NCBI GenBank assembly: GCA_947632545.1
Contig: CANRPP010000012.1
Span: 1 to 33,124 of the forward strand
Direction of reading: 5' to 3'
DNA from: an uncultured Bacilli bacterium
GTDB taxonomy: Bacteria; Bacillota_I; Bacilli_A; RF39; UBA660
DNA: 33,124 bases
Shown piece by piece: positions 2,175 through 28,591 of this stretch. The notes beneath the pieces were generated by a model that was not told the origin of the DNA, ran no database searches, and saw nothing but the letters and a program-made list of their open reading frames with translations. Position numbers and translations under genes: made by a program. The stretch's first letter is position 1. Every line of letters starts with the position of its first letter.

Positions 2175-4097
2175 TTATTTCATTTTTTTAATTAATGTTT
2201 TTTTATAAGAATCAACATTTCCTACATCAAGCATTTCGCCATCAGGAATAAATGCAATCATTCCTTGTTTTTCTCTAATGGAATCTAAAACTGTTGTTAA
2301 TTGATATTCACCATATTCCGTATTACCATTGTCTATATTAGTTTTTAATTCTTTAAATACTTCTGGTGTTAAAATATATTCACCAAATACACTATAGTAT
2401 TTTTTTTCATTATTTTTAATAGTATATAAATACTCCTTTGCATAAGCATCACTTGGTTTTTCATACATTTTATCTACTACAAAATAATTATTATTTCCAT
2501 CAATTGTTCCTGATAAAATTCCATATTTAGATACATCTTTTAAATCAACTTCACATACTGAAACAGTTAACTTTTCTGTTTTAGCAAAGTTTTCTAATAA
2601 CTGTTGTGTACAATTTTTATCATTAGATGTCATATATAACTGATCTCCCAATACTAAAAGTACCGGATCATCTGAAGCAAACTCGCTGCATAGTGAAACC
2701 GCATGGCCTAAACCTAACTTTTCATCTTGATAAATATAACTTATCTTTTTACCTATTCTTCTAATTTTTCTATCATAATCAAACATTTCAGAAGAAAGTT
2801 TATTAGCATATCCATTACTTAATTTCTGATTAAAGAAATTATCATAATATTTTTGATCATCTTTATCTATTACTAAACAAATTTCTTCAATACCCGCTGT
2901 ATCTAGTTCTTCTAGAATTGACATTATCGCAGGTTTTATAAAACCATCAGAATCTATTATTGGTAAAAATGATTTCTTTATCAATTTAGTAATAGGATAC
3001 ATTCTAGTACCATTTCCCGCTACAGGGATAATAGCTTTAGTAACAGGTTTTGTTTTATTTAAAGTTAATGTATAAGCATTAAAATTTAATTCTTGTTCCA
3101 TATATTCTTTCATTAATTTTTGACTTTCTTTGTCTTTAGCAAGGAATTGGACTATACCATCTCCTTGAGAACCAACTCCTTTACCACCATAACTTAAAGT
3201 CTTTAATTTTTCATCTTTTAAAACTCTATGTAATATAGGAGAAGTTAATTCTTTTGGACAAGCAGGAGAAACATATTTATCAAATTGTTCTTGAGCTTTT
3301 ATCATTAACTTACCAAGGCCTTCTACATCTCCTTTTTCTATACATTCTAAACTACTAAAAATAATTTTTTTATTTAGTTCTCCTAAACATTTTTGAACAT
3401 TTCTGTCAATTTGATTTTGAGCAAATGGAAAACATTTATTTAAATCACCAAGTATTTTTATAGTATCTTTTTTTGCATTCAAATCTGCAAAAACGTAATG
3501 CAAATCTTTTCCGATTTTAATATTTTGAACATCTAATTTATCTCCGTCAAAACTCATTAAAACTGGCACTTTACCAAAAGCACATACTTGATCAAGTCTA
3601 CCACATCTAGATGGAGTTAATACCTCACCATTATAGGCAGTATTCATCTCTCCAATAGTATTTAAATGTAGATTATATATTTTATTAAACGCTCTAGCTA
3701 CTAAAACACAAATTGCAGCACTTGATGATAAGCCTTTTTTCATTGGTAAAGTGGAATTATTAATAGTTATATCAAGACCATTAACATTATACTGTTCCTT
3801 AACATATAGGGCAACTCCTGCTGCATAACACCAAAAGTCATCTTTCTCTGCAATCTTTTTGAGTTCATTTATTTCCATTTTACATTTAAAAGACTTTTTA
3901 GAATCATTTTTAAATCTTACTATAAAATTTTCAGCCATTTTAGCTGTAGCATATATTCCTTGCTCAATACCAGTTACAATAGCATAACCCTTTTCTATTC
4001 TGTTATTAACCATTCTATATCTACCTGCCCAGTCACTATGTTCACCAAGTAAACATAATCTTCCTGGAACAAATAAATCTATCTTTTTATCTGTCAT
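2175..4097 (-). CDS. GHMP sugar kinase fused to a sugar-1-phosphate nucleotidyltransferase
   Basis: This 640-aa protein joins two enzymes. Residues about 5-345 are a GHMP kinase resembling galactokinase: PGRLCLLGEHSDW (substrate motif), GLSSSAA (ATP loop, about 122-128) and SYGGKGVGSQGDG (motif 3). Residues about 353-640 are a GalU/RmlA-like nucleotidyltransferase with AIIPVAGNGTRMYP, a Lys-containing SFLPII segment, YQDEKLGLGHA and LVLGDQLY. The parts would phosphorylate a free sugar at C1 and then activate it to an NDP-sugar, probably UDP-sugar given the GalU-type YQDExLGLGHA motif. The order is the reverse of Bacteroides Fkp, in which the pyrophosphorylase comes first. The start is taken as ATG at 4097; an in-frame TTG at 4109 abuts AAAGGA and is too close to serve as start. 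It lies 50 bp after rmlB. The actual sugar, galactose or a relative, is inferred only. Confidence 0.85.
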   Translation of the reverse strand: MTDKKIDLFVPGRLCLLGEHSDWAGRYRMVNNRIEKGYAIVTGIEQGIYATAKMAENFIVRFKNDSKKSFKCKMEINELKKIAEKDDFWCYAAGVALYVKEQYNVNGLDITINNSTLPMKKGLSSSAAICVLVARAFNKIYNLHLNTIGEMNTAYNGEVLTPSRCGRLDQVCAFGKVPVLMSFDGDKLDVQNIKIGKDLHYVFADLNAKKDTIKILGDLNKCFPFAQNQIDRNVQKCLGELNKKIIFSSLECIEKGDVEGLGKLMIKAQEQFDKYVSPACPKELTSPILHRVLKDEKLKTLSYGGKGVGSQGDGIVQFLAKDKESQKLMKEYMEQELNFNAYTLTLNKTKPVTKAIIPVAGNGTRMYPITKLIKKSFLPIIDSDGFIKPAIMSILEELDTAGIEEICLVIDKDDQKYYDNFFNQKLSNGYANKLSSEMFDYDRKIRRIGKKISYIYQDEKLGLGHAVSLCSEFASDDPVLLVLGDQLYMTSNDKNCTQQLLENFAKTEKLTVSVCEVDLKDVSKYGILSGTIDGNNNYFVVDKMYEKPSDAYAKEYLYTIKNNEKKYYSVFGEYILTPEVFKELKTNIDNGNTEYGEYQLTTVLDSIREKQGMIAFIPDGEMLDVGNVDSYKKTLIKKMK

Positions 4098-4147
4098 TTT
4101 ACTTTCCAATCCTTTTACTGATATTAAAATTTAAATAGTTACCTATA

Positions 4148-6450: not shown

Positions 6451-6476
6451 AAAAAGAATTAATATTAATTCTTTTT
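6451..6476 (-). terminator. Terminator overlapping the rmlCD stop codon
   Basis: A perfect 26-bp palindrome made of AAAAAGAATTAAT and its complement spans the end of rmlCD, including its TAA. On the minus strand it gives a stem followed by a T-rich tail. Because it is purely A/T plus one G-C pair per arm it may be leaky. Confidence 0.6.
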
Positions 6477-7925
6477 TGATTTACATAAAACAGGGTTATG
6501 TTTTACTAATTCTTTACAATATCTATCAGTAGCATCTTGCCATGAAGGTAACATATCAAATCCTGCTTCTTTTAATTTATCTTTACTTAATTTAGAATTT
6601 CTTGGACGATATGCTTGTTTAGCACCAGTAAGTTCAATATATTCTTCTGTTGTTACAGGATTAACTTTAACATCTAGGTTATTACTCTCGAAAATATATT
6701 TAGCAAACTCAGCCCATGAACAATACCCATCATTATTTACATGATATGTGCCATATTTATCAGTATGAGCCATTTCAACTAAAACTCTTGCAAGATCAAC
6801 TGTATAAGTAGGACTTCCAATTTGATCATCAACTACTGCAAGACAATTTTTTGTTTTAGATAAATTTATCATAGTCTTAATAAAATTATTACCATTAATG
6901 CCAAATACCCAAGAAATTCTTGTAATGAAATGTTTTGGATTACGTCTAACTTCTTCTTCACCTTCATATTTAGTTTTTCCATAAACACTCATTGGATTTA
7001 CACTATCATCTTCTTTATAAGTACCCTCTTTTTTACCATCAAATACATAATCTGTTGACATATAAATTAATTTTGCGCCTACTTCAATAGATGCATCTGT
7101 TATATTTTTAGTACCTACTACATTAATATCTCTTACTTTATCTTCTAAATCCTCTGCTTTATCAACTGCAGTCCAAGCTGCACAATGAAATATTACATCA
7201 GGTTTATAACTATTAATTATATCAAAGACTTGATCTCTATTTGTAATATCCATTTCATCGATATCTAATGCAAGATAATCTGTTTCTCCTCTTTCTTCTA
7301 ATTCTCTTACAATATCATAACCAAGTTGACCTTTATAACCTGTAATTAAATATTTAGTTTTTTGACGATTAAATACTGTTTCACACTCTTCTAAAGTTTC
7401 ACGTACTTTATCTTTTTCAGATAAAATTGGTTCTTTAATATCGTATTCCCTAAATATATCTTCCCAAGGAATTTGAAGAGCAGGATCATTCCACAAAATT
7501 CCATCTTCATATTTTGGCATATACTTATTATCTACAAAATATTCAAATAGTGAATTATCTTCTAAACATAAATAAGCATGTGCAAAACCACGAGGAACAT
7601 ATAAACATCTACCATTTTCAGGTGTTAATAAAACTTTAGTATATTGTCCATATGTCTTAGAGTCACGTCTCATATCTACAACAACATCAATAACTGACCC
7701 TCTAACACATCTAACAACTTTTGCTTGACAATATGGATTTTTTTGAAAATGAAGTCCACGTAAAACTCCCTTCTCACTTTTAGAATCACTAATTTGTTTT
7801 TGTTTAGCAAAACCAGCTTCTTTTAATTGTTCCTCTGTAATTGATTCAAAAAAGCCTCTATCATCCCCAAATCTTTGAGGTTCTAATATATAACAATCTA
7901 ATAAATTTGTTTCAATCTTTTTCAT
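6465..7925 (-). CDS. rmlCD: Fused dTDP-4-dehydrorhamnose 3,5-epimerase and dTDP-4-dehydrorhamnose reductase
   Basis: This 486-aa protein carries the last two steps of dTDP-L-rhamnose synthesis in one chain. Residues about 1-180 are RmlC: DDRGFFES, GVLRGLHFQ (catalytic His), VVVDMRRDS and GFAHAYL. Residues about 190-486 are RmlD, an NADPH-dependent reductase: YLITGYKGQLG, STDYVFDG and the SVYGKTKYEGE motif with the YxxxK catalytic pair. The start is ATG 7925 with AGGAGG 8 nt upstream; a TTG at 7943 lies before the binding site. The ATG overlaps the rmlA stop as TAATG, implying translational coupling. Reaction: epimerise dTDP-4-keto-6-deoxyglucose at C3 and C5, then reduce it to dTDP-L-rhamnose. 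Confidence 0.93.
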   Translation of the reverse strand: MKKIETNLLDCYILEPQRFGDDRGFFESITEEQLKEAGFAKQKQISDSKSEKGVLRGLHFQKNPYCQAKVVRCVRGSVIDVVVDMRRDSKTYGQYTKVLLTPENGRCLYVPRGFAHAYLCLEDNSLFEYFVDNKYMPKYEDGILWNDPALQIPWEDIFREYDIKEPILSEKDKVRETLEECETVFNRQKTKYLITGYKGQLGYDIVRELEERGETDYLALDIDEMDITNRDQVFDIINSYKPDVIFHCAAWTAVDKAEDLEDKVRDINVVGTKNITDASIEVGAKLIYMSTDYVFDGKKEGTYKEDDSVNPMSVYGKTKYEGEEEVRRNPKHFITRISWVFGINGNNFIKTMINLSKTKNCLAVVDDQIGSPTYTVDLARVLVEMAHTDKYGTYHVNNDGYCSWAEFAKYIFESNNLDVKVNPVTTEEYIELTGAKQAYRPRNSKLSKDKLKEAGFDMLPSWQDATDRYCKELVKHNPVLCKSKKN

Positions 7926-8848
7926 TATGAATTCCTCCTGCAATATTTAACCTTTACTTTTTCTTTTTTAACTTTTTCTTTACTTACTTCTAATAAATGC
8001 TGTCCATATGTATTTTTTTTCATTAATTCTGCTTGTTCTAAAAGAATCTCTTTAGATAACCAACCATTCTTATAACCTATTTCTTCAGGACAACAAATAG
8101 TAACATTTTGGTTTTTCTGGACAATTCCAACAAACTGTGATGCTTCAGATAAACTTGCAAAAGTACCTGTATCAAACCAACCATAACCAGTATTTAAAGT
8201 AATAACTTCAAGTCTTTCTTCTTCAAGAAATAATCTATTTAAATCTGTTATTTCTAACTCTCCTCTTGCAGATGGTTTTAAAGTTTTAGCTTTTTCTATA
8301 ACGCTATTATCATAGAAATATAAGCCTGTAATTGCATACTGACTCTTTGGATGCTCTGGTTTTTCTTCAACACTTAAAACTTTGCCTGTTGCTTTATCAA
8401 ATTCTACGATTCCAAATCGTTCTGGATCATCTACATGATATCCAAATACAGTTGCTTTATTTTCTTTGGCATTTTTCTTTGCTCTTAATAAATCATGAGC
8501 AAGGCCTGAACCATAAAAAATATTATCTCCTAGAATCATTGCTACACTATCATCACCTATAAACTCTTCACCTAATATAAATGCTTGAGCAAGTCCATCA
8601 GGTGATGGTTGTACTTTATAGCTTAAATTTATTCCAAATTTAGAGCCATCTCCTAATAATGATTGAAACCTAGGTAAATCAGTTGGTGTTGATATAATCA
8701 AAATATCTTTAATTTCTGCTTGCATTAAAACAGATAATGGATAATATATCATTGGTTTATCATATATTGGCATTAACTGCTTAGATGTAACCTGTGTTAA
8801 TGGATAAAGTCTAGTACCAGACCCTCCTGCTAAAATAATTCCTTTCAT
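7925..8848 (-). CDS. rmlA: Glucose-1-phosphate thymidylyltransferase
   Basis: This 307-aa enzyme makes dTDP-glucose from glucose-1-phosphate and dTTP. The signature [18 protein letters not shown] is at the very N-terminus, followed by [25 protein letters not shown] (metal-binding Asp) and VEEKP. The length is slightly above the usual 290: the C-terminus ends in a Lys/Val-rich repeat ([12 protein letters not shown]), which looks like low-complexity drift. The start has a GGGAGG site and overlaps the upstream glycosyltransferase stop as ATGA, while its own stop overlaps rmlCD as TAATG. The three genes are thus tightly coupled. Confidence 0.96.
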
Positions 8849-25071: not shown

Positions 25072-26508
25072 TTATTTATTAAATTCCTTTATTTTTCTTT
25101 TAGCTCTAGTAGTAACGGCTTTATCTATCCAATCTGCACGTGGACCAAATGATAAATCATCAGTTACTATTTTAACTCTATCTTTATTTTGTAATTTATA
25201 ATCAATTGGAACAGATTCATCATTCACAAAAGCCCCTACCATAGTATTACCTATATTTGTATGTATTTTATAGGCAAAATCAATTGGAGTAGCACCTTTT
25301 GGTAATTCGATTATATCTCCCTTTGTTGTATAAACATAAACCTTATCTGCAAATAATTCAGTTTTAACTTGATTAACAAATTCTTGATTATCTCCAAACA
25401 TTGAATTTATTTCAGTAAGAGATTTAAAAAATTGAAATTTTTCCTTCAAATCTTTTTGCATAATATCTCTAGCATTACCTTTTTGTTTATACCAATATGC
25501 AGTAAGTCCAAAAGATGCTACTATATCCATATCAAACGTTCTTATTTGAGTTTGTACTAATCTATCATCAGGTCCAAAAACTGTTGTATGCAAACTTTTA
25601 TACATATTTGTTTTTGGATTACAAATATAATCTTTAAATTTATCATTAATAGGATGATATTCATTATGAATAAATCCCAATGTTCTATAACAATTATCAA
25701 CTTCATCAACCATTATCTTTAAAGCAAGTAAATCATGAATATCAGAAATTTTATTACCATCATTTAATCTTTTATATATACCATATATATTTTTAGTTCT
25801 TATTTTTATCTCATTTGGTATATTTTTATCATTTAATAAAGTTTGAATTTTATAAAGCATTTCTTTTAAACAAGAATCACTAGATTCTTCTACTTTTATT
25901 TTTATTTCTTCAATTTGTTTATACATATCAGGTTTTAAATACTGTAAAGATAAATCTTCAAGTTCAGATTTAATTCTATAGGCACCTATATAATAAGCTA
26001 GAGGTACAAATATTTCCATTGTTTCTAGTGAATTTTCTTTTTGTTTAAATAAAGATTTAAATTGTAAAGTTCTCATATTATGTAGTCTATCCGCCAATTT
26101 TATTATTATAATTCTTACATCATCTGTTAATCCTGTTATTATTTTTCTTGTATTAGCATAATTTTGAGCTTGTTTTGAAGAAAAATTCATTTTTGCAAGT
26201 TTAGTTACTCCATCAACTAAATTAGCAATATCTTGATTAAAGTCATGAGCAATATCTTCTTTTGTAATATTAGTATCTTCTATTGTATCATGTAATAAGC
26301 CTGCACAAATAGTATCTTTATCCGCATGCATATCAGCTAAAATATACGCAACATTTAAGGGATGACTTATATATGGGTCTCCACTTTGTCTCATCTGCCC
26401 AGAGTGCAAATTATCTGCATAATTATATGCATTTTTAACAAATTCAATATCTTCTTTTTTATACTCATGTAGTTTATTAATTAAATCATTTAAAGTAATA
26501 TTAGTCAT
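25072..26508 (-). CDS. Short Rel/SpoT homologue, intact hydrolase and altered synthetase site
   Basis: This 478-aa protein has the (p)ppGpp hydrolase HD domain (about 25-190): ISHPLNV with His49, LLHDTIEDT (HDxxED, 73-78) and KLADRLHN (Asp140), all present. The synthetase domain (about 235-345) keeps RTKNIYGIYKRL and KDYICNPK, but the catalytic-Glu motif normally VEVQIRT reads VQTQIRT (Gln319), and NGYQSLHT is NMYKSLHT. A TGS domain (about 385-447) follows and the protein ends soon after, without the zinc-finger and ACT regions of a roughly 730-aa RelA/SpoT. Predicted to degrade rather than make the alarmone. It has a GGAGGTG site, its own promoter and an upstream small ORF with a hairpin. 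Confidence 0.9.
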   Translation of the reverse strand: MTNITLNDLINKLHEYKKEDIEFVKNAYNYADNLHSGQMRQSGDPYISHPLNVAYILADMHADKDTICAGLLHDTIEDTNITKEDIAHDFNQDIANLVDGVTKLAKMNFSSKQAQNYANTRKIITGLTDDVRIIIIKLADRLHNMRTLQFKSLFKQKENSLETMEIFVPLAYYIGAYRIKSELEDLSLQYLKPDMYKQIEEIKIKVEESSDSCLKEMLYKIQTLLNDKNIPNEIKIRTKNIYGIYKRLNDGNKISDIHDLLALKIMVDEVDNCYRTLGFIHNEYHPINDKFKDYICNPKTNMYKSLHTTVFGPDDRLVQTQIRTFDMDIVASFGLTAYWYKQKGNARDIMQKDLKEKFQFFKSLTEINSMFGDNQEFVNQVKTELFADKVYVYTTKGDIIELPKGATPIDFAYKIHTNIGNTMVGAFVNDESVPIDYKLQNKDRVKIVTDDLSFGPRADWIDKAVTTRAKRKIKEFNK

Positions 26509-26524
26509 TTATAAACACCTCCAA

Positions 26525-26569
26525 AATCAAAAAGGCGGCTAAAAAGCAAAATACTTTTTAGTCACCTTT
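26525..26569 (-). terminator. Terminator-like hairpin in the leader of the Rel/SpoT gene
   Basis: The minus strand has a 16-bp arm AAAGGTGACTAAAAAG pairing with CTTTTTAGCCGCCTTT (one mismatch, one G-U), a 7-nt loop, then TTTTTGATTTTGG leading straight to the ribosome binding site. The stop codon of the upstream small ORF lies in the first arm. It may be an attenuator. Confidence 0.65.
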
Positions 26570-26653
26570 ATAAGAGAACACAGTAATTTTATGAAATTTT
26601 ATTATATAATCAAAAATATCATTTAATTTTAATCCATAAATCTCTTTTATCAT
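26558..26653 (-). CDS. Small ORF of 31 codons upstream of the Rel/SpoT gene
   Basis: A 31-aa frame starting MIKEIYGLKLNDIFDYI and ending FSYKGD, then TAA, has a good AGGAG ribosome binding site 8 nt before its ATG and lies downstream of a clear promoter. Its stop codon is inside the 5' arm of the terminator-like hairpin. It is followed by the Rel/SpoT gene. I do not recognise it; it could be a leader peptide or a small protein. No in-frame run of one amino acid that would mark classic attenuation is evident. Confidence 0.55.
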   Translation of the reverse strand: MIKEIYGLKLNDIFDYIIKFHKITVFSYKGD

Positions 26654-26682
26654 AATTATTACTCCTAAAATAACTTTTATTA

Positions 26683-26711
26683 ATCTTATTACTTATTTTA
26701 ATAAAAGTCAA
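26683..26711 (-). promoter_or_regulatory. Promoter of the small ORF-Rel/SpoT unit
   Basis: The minus strand has TTGACT, 17 bp, and TAAGAT. It ends about 30 bases before the small ORF ATG and just after the HD-domain gene stop. Confidence 0.65.
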
Positions 26712-26727
26712 TAGAATATTTAAAAAA

Positions 26728-27189
26728 TTATATTCTTATATATGTTAACATTTCCCACAAAGTACATATTTTATCCGCTGCACAAACTATTATACTTTCT
26801 TTATATTTAGGTAATTTTATATTCAATGGAAACATATGTCTTTGAATAATATCTTTCTCTATTGGATTTAATAAAAAATCTCTTTCTGCATTATTTAAAG
26901 CTATTTTAGCATGTCTAAATCCATGAAGATTATGATTTTCATCTTTTACATGCCAGTCATATAAGAAATAATCATGCAATAAAGCACCTCTTATTAGTGC
27001 TCTTTTATTAACGTTTAAATTTAATTTTTTAGATATATAAACGCTAAGACATGCTACCCCAAAGCAATGTTCAAATACACTAACATCAGCATGTTGAATA
27101 TATTTTTTCTCAACATCTATATTTTTAGAGGTAACAATATCTTTACCATAATATATGACAACACTTTCCATGTTTGTTAATTTTCTCAT
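26728..27189 (-). CDS. HD-domain hydrolase-like protein
   Basis: This 153-aa protein has an HD-superfamily metal site: EHCFGVACLSVYI (His), ALLHDYFLYDWH (HD pair) and later GFRHAKIAL and AADKICTLWEM (Asp). These are seen in small HD phosphohydrolases that act on nucleotides, phosphate monoesters or other substrates. The substrate is not deducible. The start has AAGGA 9 nt upstream. It is the gene just before the Rel/SpoT unit, with a promoter between them, and follows the DUF4186 gene by 83 bp. Confidence 0.82.
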   Translation of the reverse strand: MRKLTNMESVVIYYGKDIVTSKNIDVEKKYIQHADVSVFEHCFGVACLSVYISKKLNLNVNKRALIRGALLHDYFLYDWHVKDENHNLHGFRHAKIALNNAERDFLLNPIEKDIIQRHMFPLNIKLPKYKESIIVCAADKICTLWEMLTYIRI

Positions 27190-27646: not shown

Positions 27647-28591
27647 TTATAATTTCTCTATTTCCCTTTTTGTTAAACCTGTATATTTTAAGATAGTTTC
27701 TATATCAATATTATCTTCTTTCATCTTTTTGGCTATAGATATAGAGTTTTCTTTTTTACCTTGCTCTAATCCTTGTTCTAATCCTTCTTTACGTCCTTCC
27801 TTAAGCCCTTCTTTACGTCCTTCCTTAAGCCCTTCCTTACGTCCTTCTACGAGTCCCTCTTTATGTCCTTCTCTACGCCCTTCTCTATGTCCTTCTTCTA
27901 TTGCTTCTGTTCTCAAAGAGTTTTCTATTTTCTCATTATCTTCTTCCGCACTCATGTATTCTCTAAATTCTACTTCTTCATTTACCCTTTCTATTTCACT
28001 CATATACTTTAACACCATCCTATCTTTTTTTGATAGATTCTCTAACTCTTCTGGTTGTAAGTTTAACATCATTATATATTTATTTTCTTCTATCTCTTTT
28101 TCATCCTTATTGTACCAAATTTCCATATATTTATCCATATTTATTTCATATATTATTAAGTTATTTATATATTTATTTTTATCTTCATCTTGGACCATAT
28201 ATTTTCTTATTAATTCTTTATATTTTAGTCCATAACTTATATTTATTTGTACTACTAATGTATTCTCATTATATGATTCTCCTTTTTTAGTACTATGGGA
28301 ATATATATCACATATATATGAAAAGTTTCTTGGTTTTACATAACTTTCTGTACTTGTATTTACTTCTACTTCTATATATCCTATATTTGTTTTTAAGTTT
28401 AGATCTAGATGTTTTCTTTTTACATTTACATTATCTACATTTCTTTCTAGATTTAAATATTTTATTTCTTCTATTTTTACTTTTAGAATACTTTCTAATA
28501 ATTTTTCTAATATATCTTTATTATTTTCATTCATAAAGACTTCTTTAAATGCCCTATCATATCTACAGGTATAAAATTTTTCTTTTGTCAT
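27647..28591 (-). CDS. Rpn-type PD-(D/E)XK nuclease-family protein with tandem EG-repeat tail
   Basis: This 314-aa protein starts with a PD-(D/E)XK transposase/Rpn-type domain (residues about 1-235): DRAFKEVF, then RKHLDLNLKTNIGYIEVEVN with the Asp and the ExE nuclease-site pattern, and IYSHSTKKGESY. The Rpn family promotes RecA-independent recombination as a DNA nuclease. Residues about 225-280 are repeats of EG with R/K and L (EGRKEGLK style), encoded by six 24-bp units. The C-terminus ends in a short helical segment (ILKYTGLTKREIEKL). An AAGGAG site supports the start. Confidence 0.85.
   Translation of the reverse strand: MTKEKFYTCRYDRAFKEVFMNENNKDILEKLLESILKVKIEEIKYLNLERNVDNVNVKRKHLDLNLKTNIGYIEVEVNTSTESYVKPRNFSYICDIYSHSTKKGESYNENTLVVQINISYGLKYKELIRKYMVQDEDKNKYINNLIIYEINMDKYMEIWYNKDEKEIEENKYIMMLNLQPEELENLSKKDRMVLKYMSEIERVNEEVEFREYMSAEEDNEKIENSLRTEAIEEGHREGRREGHKEGLVEGRKEGLKEGRKEGLKEGRKEGLEQGLEQGKKENSISIAKKMKEDNIDIETILKYTGLTKREIEKL
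27759..27902. repeat. Six tandem 24-bp repeats in the Rpn-type gene
   Basis: Units at 27759, 27783, 27807, 27831, 27855 and 27879; the second and third (27783-27806 and 27807-27830) are identical and the rest diverge. Each unit encodes eight residues made of two EG-containing tetrads. They keep the reading frame, so copy number can change without frameshift. Confidence 0.85.

Follow-up and report, generated by a model that had tools for sequence, protein, structure and literature searches.

In the pyrBI leader of E. coli, the leader ORF ends at or in the terminator, and ribosome occupancy of this region gives readthrough with no need for an antiterminator. Leader peptides of the trp/his type are encoded by short ORFs rich in the codons of one amino acid, followed in the classical cases by a terminator. 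Most discussion of how (p)ppGpp is controlled centers on the activity of the enzymes.

The vmlR gene of Bacillus subtilis is preceded by a three-codon upstream ORF (uORF) at which stalling releases an antiterminator (PMC9226507). In Actinobacteria, Cys-rich leader peptides lie upstream of cys operons, without a clear terminator (PMC1262725). A small literature search limited to open-access papers found no attenuator upstream of a Rel/SpoT gene.

The locus described here lies in a 33,124-nucleotide stretch of a contig from an uncultured Bacilli bacterium (CANRPP010000012.1), the whole of which is referred to as the window. It is like pyrBI in that the uORF stops at or inside the terminator hairpin, a feature common in its own genome, and in that readthrough is proposed to follow from ribosome occupancy, with no antiterminator needed. 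Unlike pyrBI, the target is a rel gene, most members of the family carry Cys codons and a helix that sequesters the ribosome-binding site (RBS), and in this lineage transcription may not be coupled to translation. As in vmlR, a stem encloses the uORF and an intrinsic terminator stands between it and the gene; both systems belong to Firmicutes and have a link to (p)ppGpp (PMC9226507). The locus differs from vmlR in that stalling is expected to terminate transcription, and folding predicts no antiterminator. Compared with the amino-acid leader peptides, the target is an alarmone enzyme and not a biosynthesis gene, and the predicted sign is reversed.

The leader and the short Rel paralogue

The original prediction for this locus named a promoter, an AGGAG site, a 31-codon ORF, a hairpin with a T-run and the RBS of rel, in that order, with the stop codon of the ORF in the first arm of the hairpin. 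All of these elements are seen on the minus strand, and the stop codon does fall within the first arm (Table 1). The core arms of the hairpin span 16 positions with one mismatch and one G-U pair. In folding, the hairpin forms with a pairing probability of 0.82; a simple terminator scan reported no terminator in this stretch. The hairpin lies 80 nucleotides from the start codon, and the frame stays open to it in 4.9% of shuffles of the uORF interior. The promoter-like hexamers match at 9 of 12 positions, and such hexamers occur at near background density (47 found vs. 39 expected). A search of Rfam 15, T-box and other riboswitches included, gave no match above the gathering score in the window. 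A 153-amino-acid HD-domain protein (PF01966) is encoded on the same strand at 26728-27189 and ends just 5’ of the leader promoter.

Table 1. Coordinates of the leader and of the short rel gene in the window.
Feature	Position	Strand	Details
Promoter-like sequence TTGACT-N17-TAAGAT	26683..26711	minus	TTGACT at 26711-26706, 17-nucleotide spacer, TAAGAT at 26688-26683
Predicted transcription start	near 26676	minus	from the position of the promoter-like sequence
uORF Shine-Dalgarno AGGAG	26662..26666	minus	from sequence
uORF, 31 codons	26558..26653	minus	ATG at 26653, stop TAA at 26560-26558
uORF peptide MIKEIYGLKLNDIFDYIIKFHKITVFSYKGD		minus	translation of the 31 codons
Intrinsic terminator hairpin	26527..26573	minus	encloses the uORF stop; from folding
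Terminator arm 1 AAAGGTGACTAAAAAG	26569-26554	minus	holds the uORF stop
Terminator arm 2 CTTTTTAGCCGCCTTT	26546-26531	minus	core arm
Terminator T-run	26533-26529	minus	from sequence
Possible RBS-sequestering pairing	26582..26663	minus	AGUAAU (26663-26658) with AUUACU (26587-26582); from folding
rel Shine-Dalgarno GGAGG	26518..26522	minus	from sequence
Short rel paralogue, 478 aa	25072..26508	minus	ATG at 26508; HD_4, RelA_SpoT and TGS, no ACT

The 478-amino-acid Rel protein contains HD_4, RelA_SpoT and TGS domains and ends where full-length Rel continues. Its hydrolase motif (HDxxED) is intact, with the sequence HDTIED and the flanking His and Asp residues present. Its synthetase motif is QTQIRT, whereas that of Rel is ExQIRT. 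Gln replaces the catalytic Glu in all 61 leader-bearing paralogues matched by motif search and in five more with slightly altered motifs, read by eye; two further leader-bearing entries are too short for this motif to be read. The catalytic Glu that marks a bifunctional Rel is thus missing from the short Rels wherever the motif is readable. It is kept in 15 of 15 full-length Rel sequences checked, among them the second Rel of the window’s own genome, which lies on another contig. In the Rel of Streptococcus equisimilis, Gln in place of the catalytic Glu abolishes synthesis. The short Rel looks like a hydrolase-only paralogue, able only to destroy (p)ppGpp, and its motifs agree with the earlier description of the gene product as an alarmone hydrolase.

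RshC is a second-copy long RSH of six Bacillus strains (PMC3153485). The short Rel is like RshC in being a second Rel copy that keeps TGS and is missing most of the C-terminal domains. It is unlike RshC in belonging to a set that comes from uncultured Bacilli and has Gln at the position of the catalytic Glu; the two were compared by description. One relative (G034) has two short-Rel copies (L002 on contig C6 and L031 on contig C34), each 87% identical to that of the window. The upstream region of one of these copies is ended by a contig edge.

Three other proteins of the window were noted by eye. A fused RmlC-RmlD-like protein (6465-7943) lies in a sugar-nucleotide cluster, and a 644-amino-acid protein (2175-4109) has the look of a sugar kinase-nucleotidyltransferase fusion. 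The third, of 314 amino acids (27647-28591), resembles Rpn-type nucleases, and its KEGLKEGRKEG repeat tract leaves a long open frame on the opposite strand.

Conservation of the leader and the base rate of its features

Short-Rel loci were drawn from anonymous relatives and public genome contigs; all genomes are draft assemblies, and the leaders share ancestry. A terminator is present in 77 of 92 distinct short-Rel upstream regions. The full order of promoter, uORF with a Shine-Dalgarno sequence and a stop at or near the terminator, terminator and rel is found at 69 of the 92 loci. A few further loci show the leader by eye, and about a quarter of the distinct loci are without it under the strict filter. 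L033 was judged doubtful and removed from the 69, and the later tests used the other 68 leaders, which fall into 53 clusters sharing less than 60% nucleotide identity. The leader is absent upstream of all 15 full-length Rel genes examined. It occurs mainly in one clade of the Rel tree (69 of 76 rows), a quick tree with several weak forks. One divergent short Rel (L036, G026:C9) has a promoter and a terminator-like hairpin with no uORF 5’ of the gene.

A best promoter score of 10 of 12 or higher occurs in 72% of leaders vs. 7% of shuffles, and the median distance from the -10 box to the uORF is 31 nucleotides. In many relatives the ORF, the position of its stop and the hairpin are jointly kept before rel, and the original prediction withstands the conservation check that it had set itself. 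An ORF and then an intrinsic terminator before a gene, kept together, have the anatomy of a leader-peptide attenuator in the broad sense, for which readthrough would depend on translation of the leader. The leader as an observation is strong because it is conserved; taken alone, the stop within the hairpin and the promoter hexamers are weak.

The uORFs are 17 to 56 codons long and open to the hairpin over the 53 divergent clusters; a shuffled interior stays open in 9% of trials. Their peptides cannot be aligned between clusters. This lack of alignment, while the order with rel persists, makes it very improbable that the ORF is simply a small gene, with a terminator of its own, that happens to lie beside rel and encodes a functional peptide, an alternative that had been raised at the outset. 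Such a gene would account for the good RBS, the promoter of its own and the recurrence of Cys, Ser and hydrophobic residues in the peptides. It would not account for four relatives in which the uORF frame crosses the hairpin and closes only at the rel RBS or just beyond it.

The position of the stop codon proved to be less distinctive. Of the leaders, 82% have a stop at or inside the hairpin; among ordinary terminators compared over an equal range, the figure is 61% (p = 2e-5). This enrichment is the weaker evidence because the leader search itself demanded a stop near the hairpin. The base rate in the window’s own genome was taken from 1,003,210 bases (about 1.0 Mb), read as stretches, with terminators of at least 8 kcal/mol. 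There, 53% of 248 terminator-followed genes have their stop at or inside the hairpin. The feature was rejected as decisive evidence, since ordinary terminators of the same genome share it. In B. subtilis, stops so placed are associated with an RNA polymerase that moves ahead of the ribosomes (reviewed in PMC7858274), and their frequency here may mean that transcription runs ahead of translation in this lineage as well.

A mechanical leader filter applied to the same genome was passed by 7 of 962 genes, that of the window included. The hairpins of the other six are weaker than the window’s. Three of these candidates, which precede genes identified by eye as S10-like, DnaI-like and TatD-like, were inspected and look like chance.

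Cysteine codons and predicted RNA folding

In the region 66 to 15 nucleotides before the hairpin, 10.1% of in-frame codons encode Cys, vs. 3.2 and 3.8% in the other two frames (p = 1e-6; one leader per cluster). This is about tenfold higher than the 1.0% of Cys codons in the proteome, for which one genome served as reference. The frame test rejects a by-product of base composition, and a by-product of the RBS helix was not supported (odds ratio 1.26, p = 0.25). Like the anatomy, the conservation, the frame constraint and the Glu-to-Gln change, the enrichment is read from the sequences themselves. Worth noting is that the uORF of the window has no Cys codon, as one of eight Cys-free clusters among the 53. 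The enrichment for one amino acid’s codons that marks trp/his-type leaders is therefore seen for Cys across the family and is absent from the window’s uORF.

No cysteine synthase match was found in the window’s own genome or in 99 of 117 family genomes. Because most family genomes have no such match, cysteine may be supplied from outside in these Bacilli.

A ribosome footprint was modeled as a 30-nucleotide mask walked along each uORF of the 68 leaders. The predicted probability of the terminator is about 0.93 until the P site is about 18 nucleotides from the hairpin and then falls to near 0. A ribosome waiting at the leader Cys codons would leave the hairpin uncovered. The original suggestion that a finishing ribosome melts the hairpin agrees with this folding, in which only a ribosome that has reached the ORF’s end is predicted to remove the terminator.

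No antiterminator is predicted: in the 68 leaders, no ribosome position before the last 18 nucleotides lowers the terminator probability. The mutually exclusive antiterminator and terminator of trp/his-type attenuators are thus missing from the folding. The same result makes it very unlikely that the leader works by classical or antibiotic-type attenuation as in vmlR, where a ribosome stalled in the uORF frees an antiterminator and the gene is turned on. That arrangement is known from resistance genes of Firmicutes, and there too a uORF enclosed in a stem precedes the terminator (PMC9226507); here, no alternative structure weakens the terminator at those positions.

Across the family, the RBS and start codon of the uORF are predicted to pair with the last stretch before the terminator. 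The pairing is 0.60 in native leaders vs. 0.28 with shuffled interiors (p = 8e-11), a value that, like most p values here, treats leaders as independent. With one leader per cluster, 22 of 53 leaders pair better with their own partner than with swapped partners at the 10% level (p = 2e-9). The mean z of RBS pairing is -0.11 for 898 ordinary genes vs. -1.80 for the leaders. The pairing of the window’s own leader is at chance level (z = +0.26). All of these structures, the RBS helix and the absence of an antiterminator included, are model predictions.

These results bear on the reading of the uORF as a passive spacer or decoy, with a terminator that sets a low, constant level of rel without translational regulation. 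Stop codons inside terminators are ordinary in this genome, and in genomes of this kind the ribosomes may lag behind RNA polymerase (PMC7858274), both as a passive spacer would have it. A passive terminator would not be expected to carry frames of 17 to 56 codons open to the hairpin in all these clusters, a frame-specific enrichment of Cys or a covarying RBS helix, and this reading is considered unlikely.

Proposed regulation and its meaning

The leader is probably a ribosome-controlled transcription attenuator, in which completed translation of the uORF permits readthrough into the hydrolase-only Rel paralogue. Transcription from the leader’s own promoter would halt by default at the hairpin before rel. 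A ribosome that loads early and finishes the uORF would occupy the first arm of the hairpin, block the terminator and let the polymerase enter rel; in a few relatives, the translating ribosome would run right through the hairpin. Failed initiation or an earlier stall would allow the terminator to form. In most relatives, the stall site is probably the Cys codons 15 to 66 nucleotides before the hairpin, and once the terminator has formed, the bases immediately before it could pair with, and so close, the RBS of the uORF. Good translation would then lead to (p)ppGpp hydrolase being made. Under poor translation the hydrolase would be withheld, and (p)ppGpp from full-length Rel would accumulate.

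We infer the sign of the response and its trigger, and also that readthrough follows from ribosome occupancy. The original view that the state of translation controls the gene gains from the conservation, the hydrolase-like gene and the footprint folding, and it loses the stop within the hairpin as an argument, that feature being ordinary in this genome. The comparison suggests that the cell’s ability to translate decides whether a Rel-type hydrolase is made. In the relatives, the translation state that is sensed may be more specific, involving the Cys codons and the RBS-sequestering helix.

The chief doubt about the attenuator concerns the timing of ribosome arrival. The distance from start codon to hairpin has a median of 93 nucleotides across the leaders, and in E. 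coli, a terminator located in the first 100 bp of a coding region remains effective (PMC4824070). Because the uORF is short and transcription may outrun translation, the ribosome may often arrive too late without a polymerase pause. Polymerase pausing would help; the NusG pause motif TTNTTT, the only pause motif examined, is not enriched in the leaders.

The same critical timing, set by a short uORF, would suit a sensor of polymerase speed of the pyrBI kind, in which the uORF is always translated and a slow polymerase (for example, at low GTP) lets the ribosome catch up. The leader also resembles pyrBI in having its stop at the hairpin and no predicted antiterminator. Such a sensor would leave the in-frame Cys codons and the RBS helix unexplained, the lack of TTNTTT enrichment speaks against it as well, and it is rated as quite unlikely. 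Under it, low GTP would give more hydrolase, a negative feedback on (p)ppGpp. Because this sign is opposite to that of the translation-controlled attenuator, the sign given above for the (p)ppGpp response is to be read as conditional.

A fuller proposal for these gut Bacilli, most of which show no cysteine synthase match, is offered tentatively. Their leader might be an attenuator of reversed sign, in which only a ribosome past the Cys-rich stretch opens the way to the hydrolase and the helix closes the leader RBS after the polymerase has passed. Cysteine supply and translation capacity would together govern how much (p)ppGpp is broken down, through transcription and with no regulatory protein involved.

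A conserved leader through which transcription of a hydrolase-only Rel depends on translation of a uORF would form a feed-forward or bistable switch in the stringent response. The setting is a reduced-genome lineage, known here from metagenome assemblies alone. The leader would also bear on whether ribosome-coupled attenuation works where transcription is thought to outrun translation.
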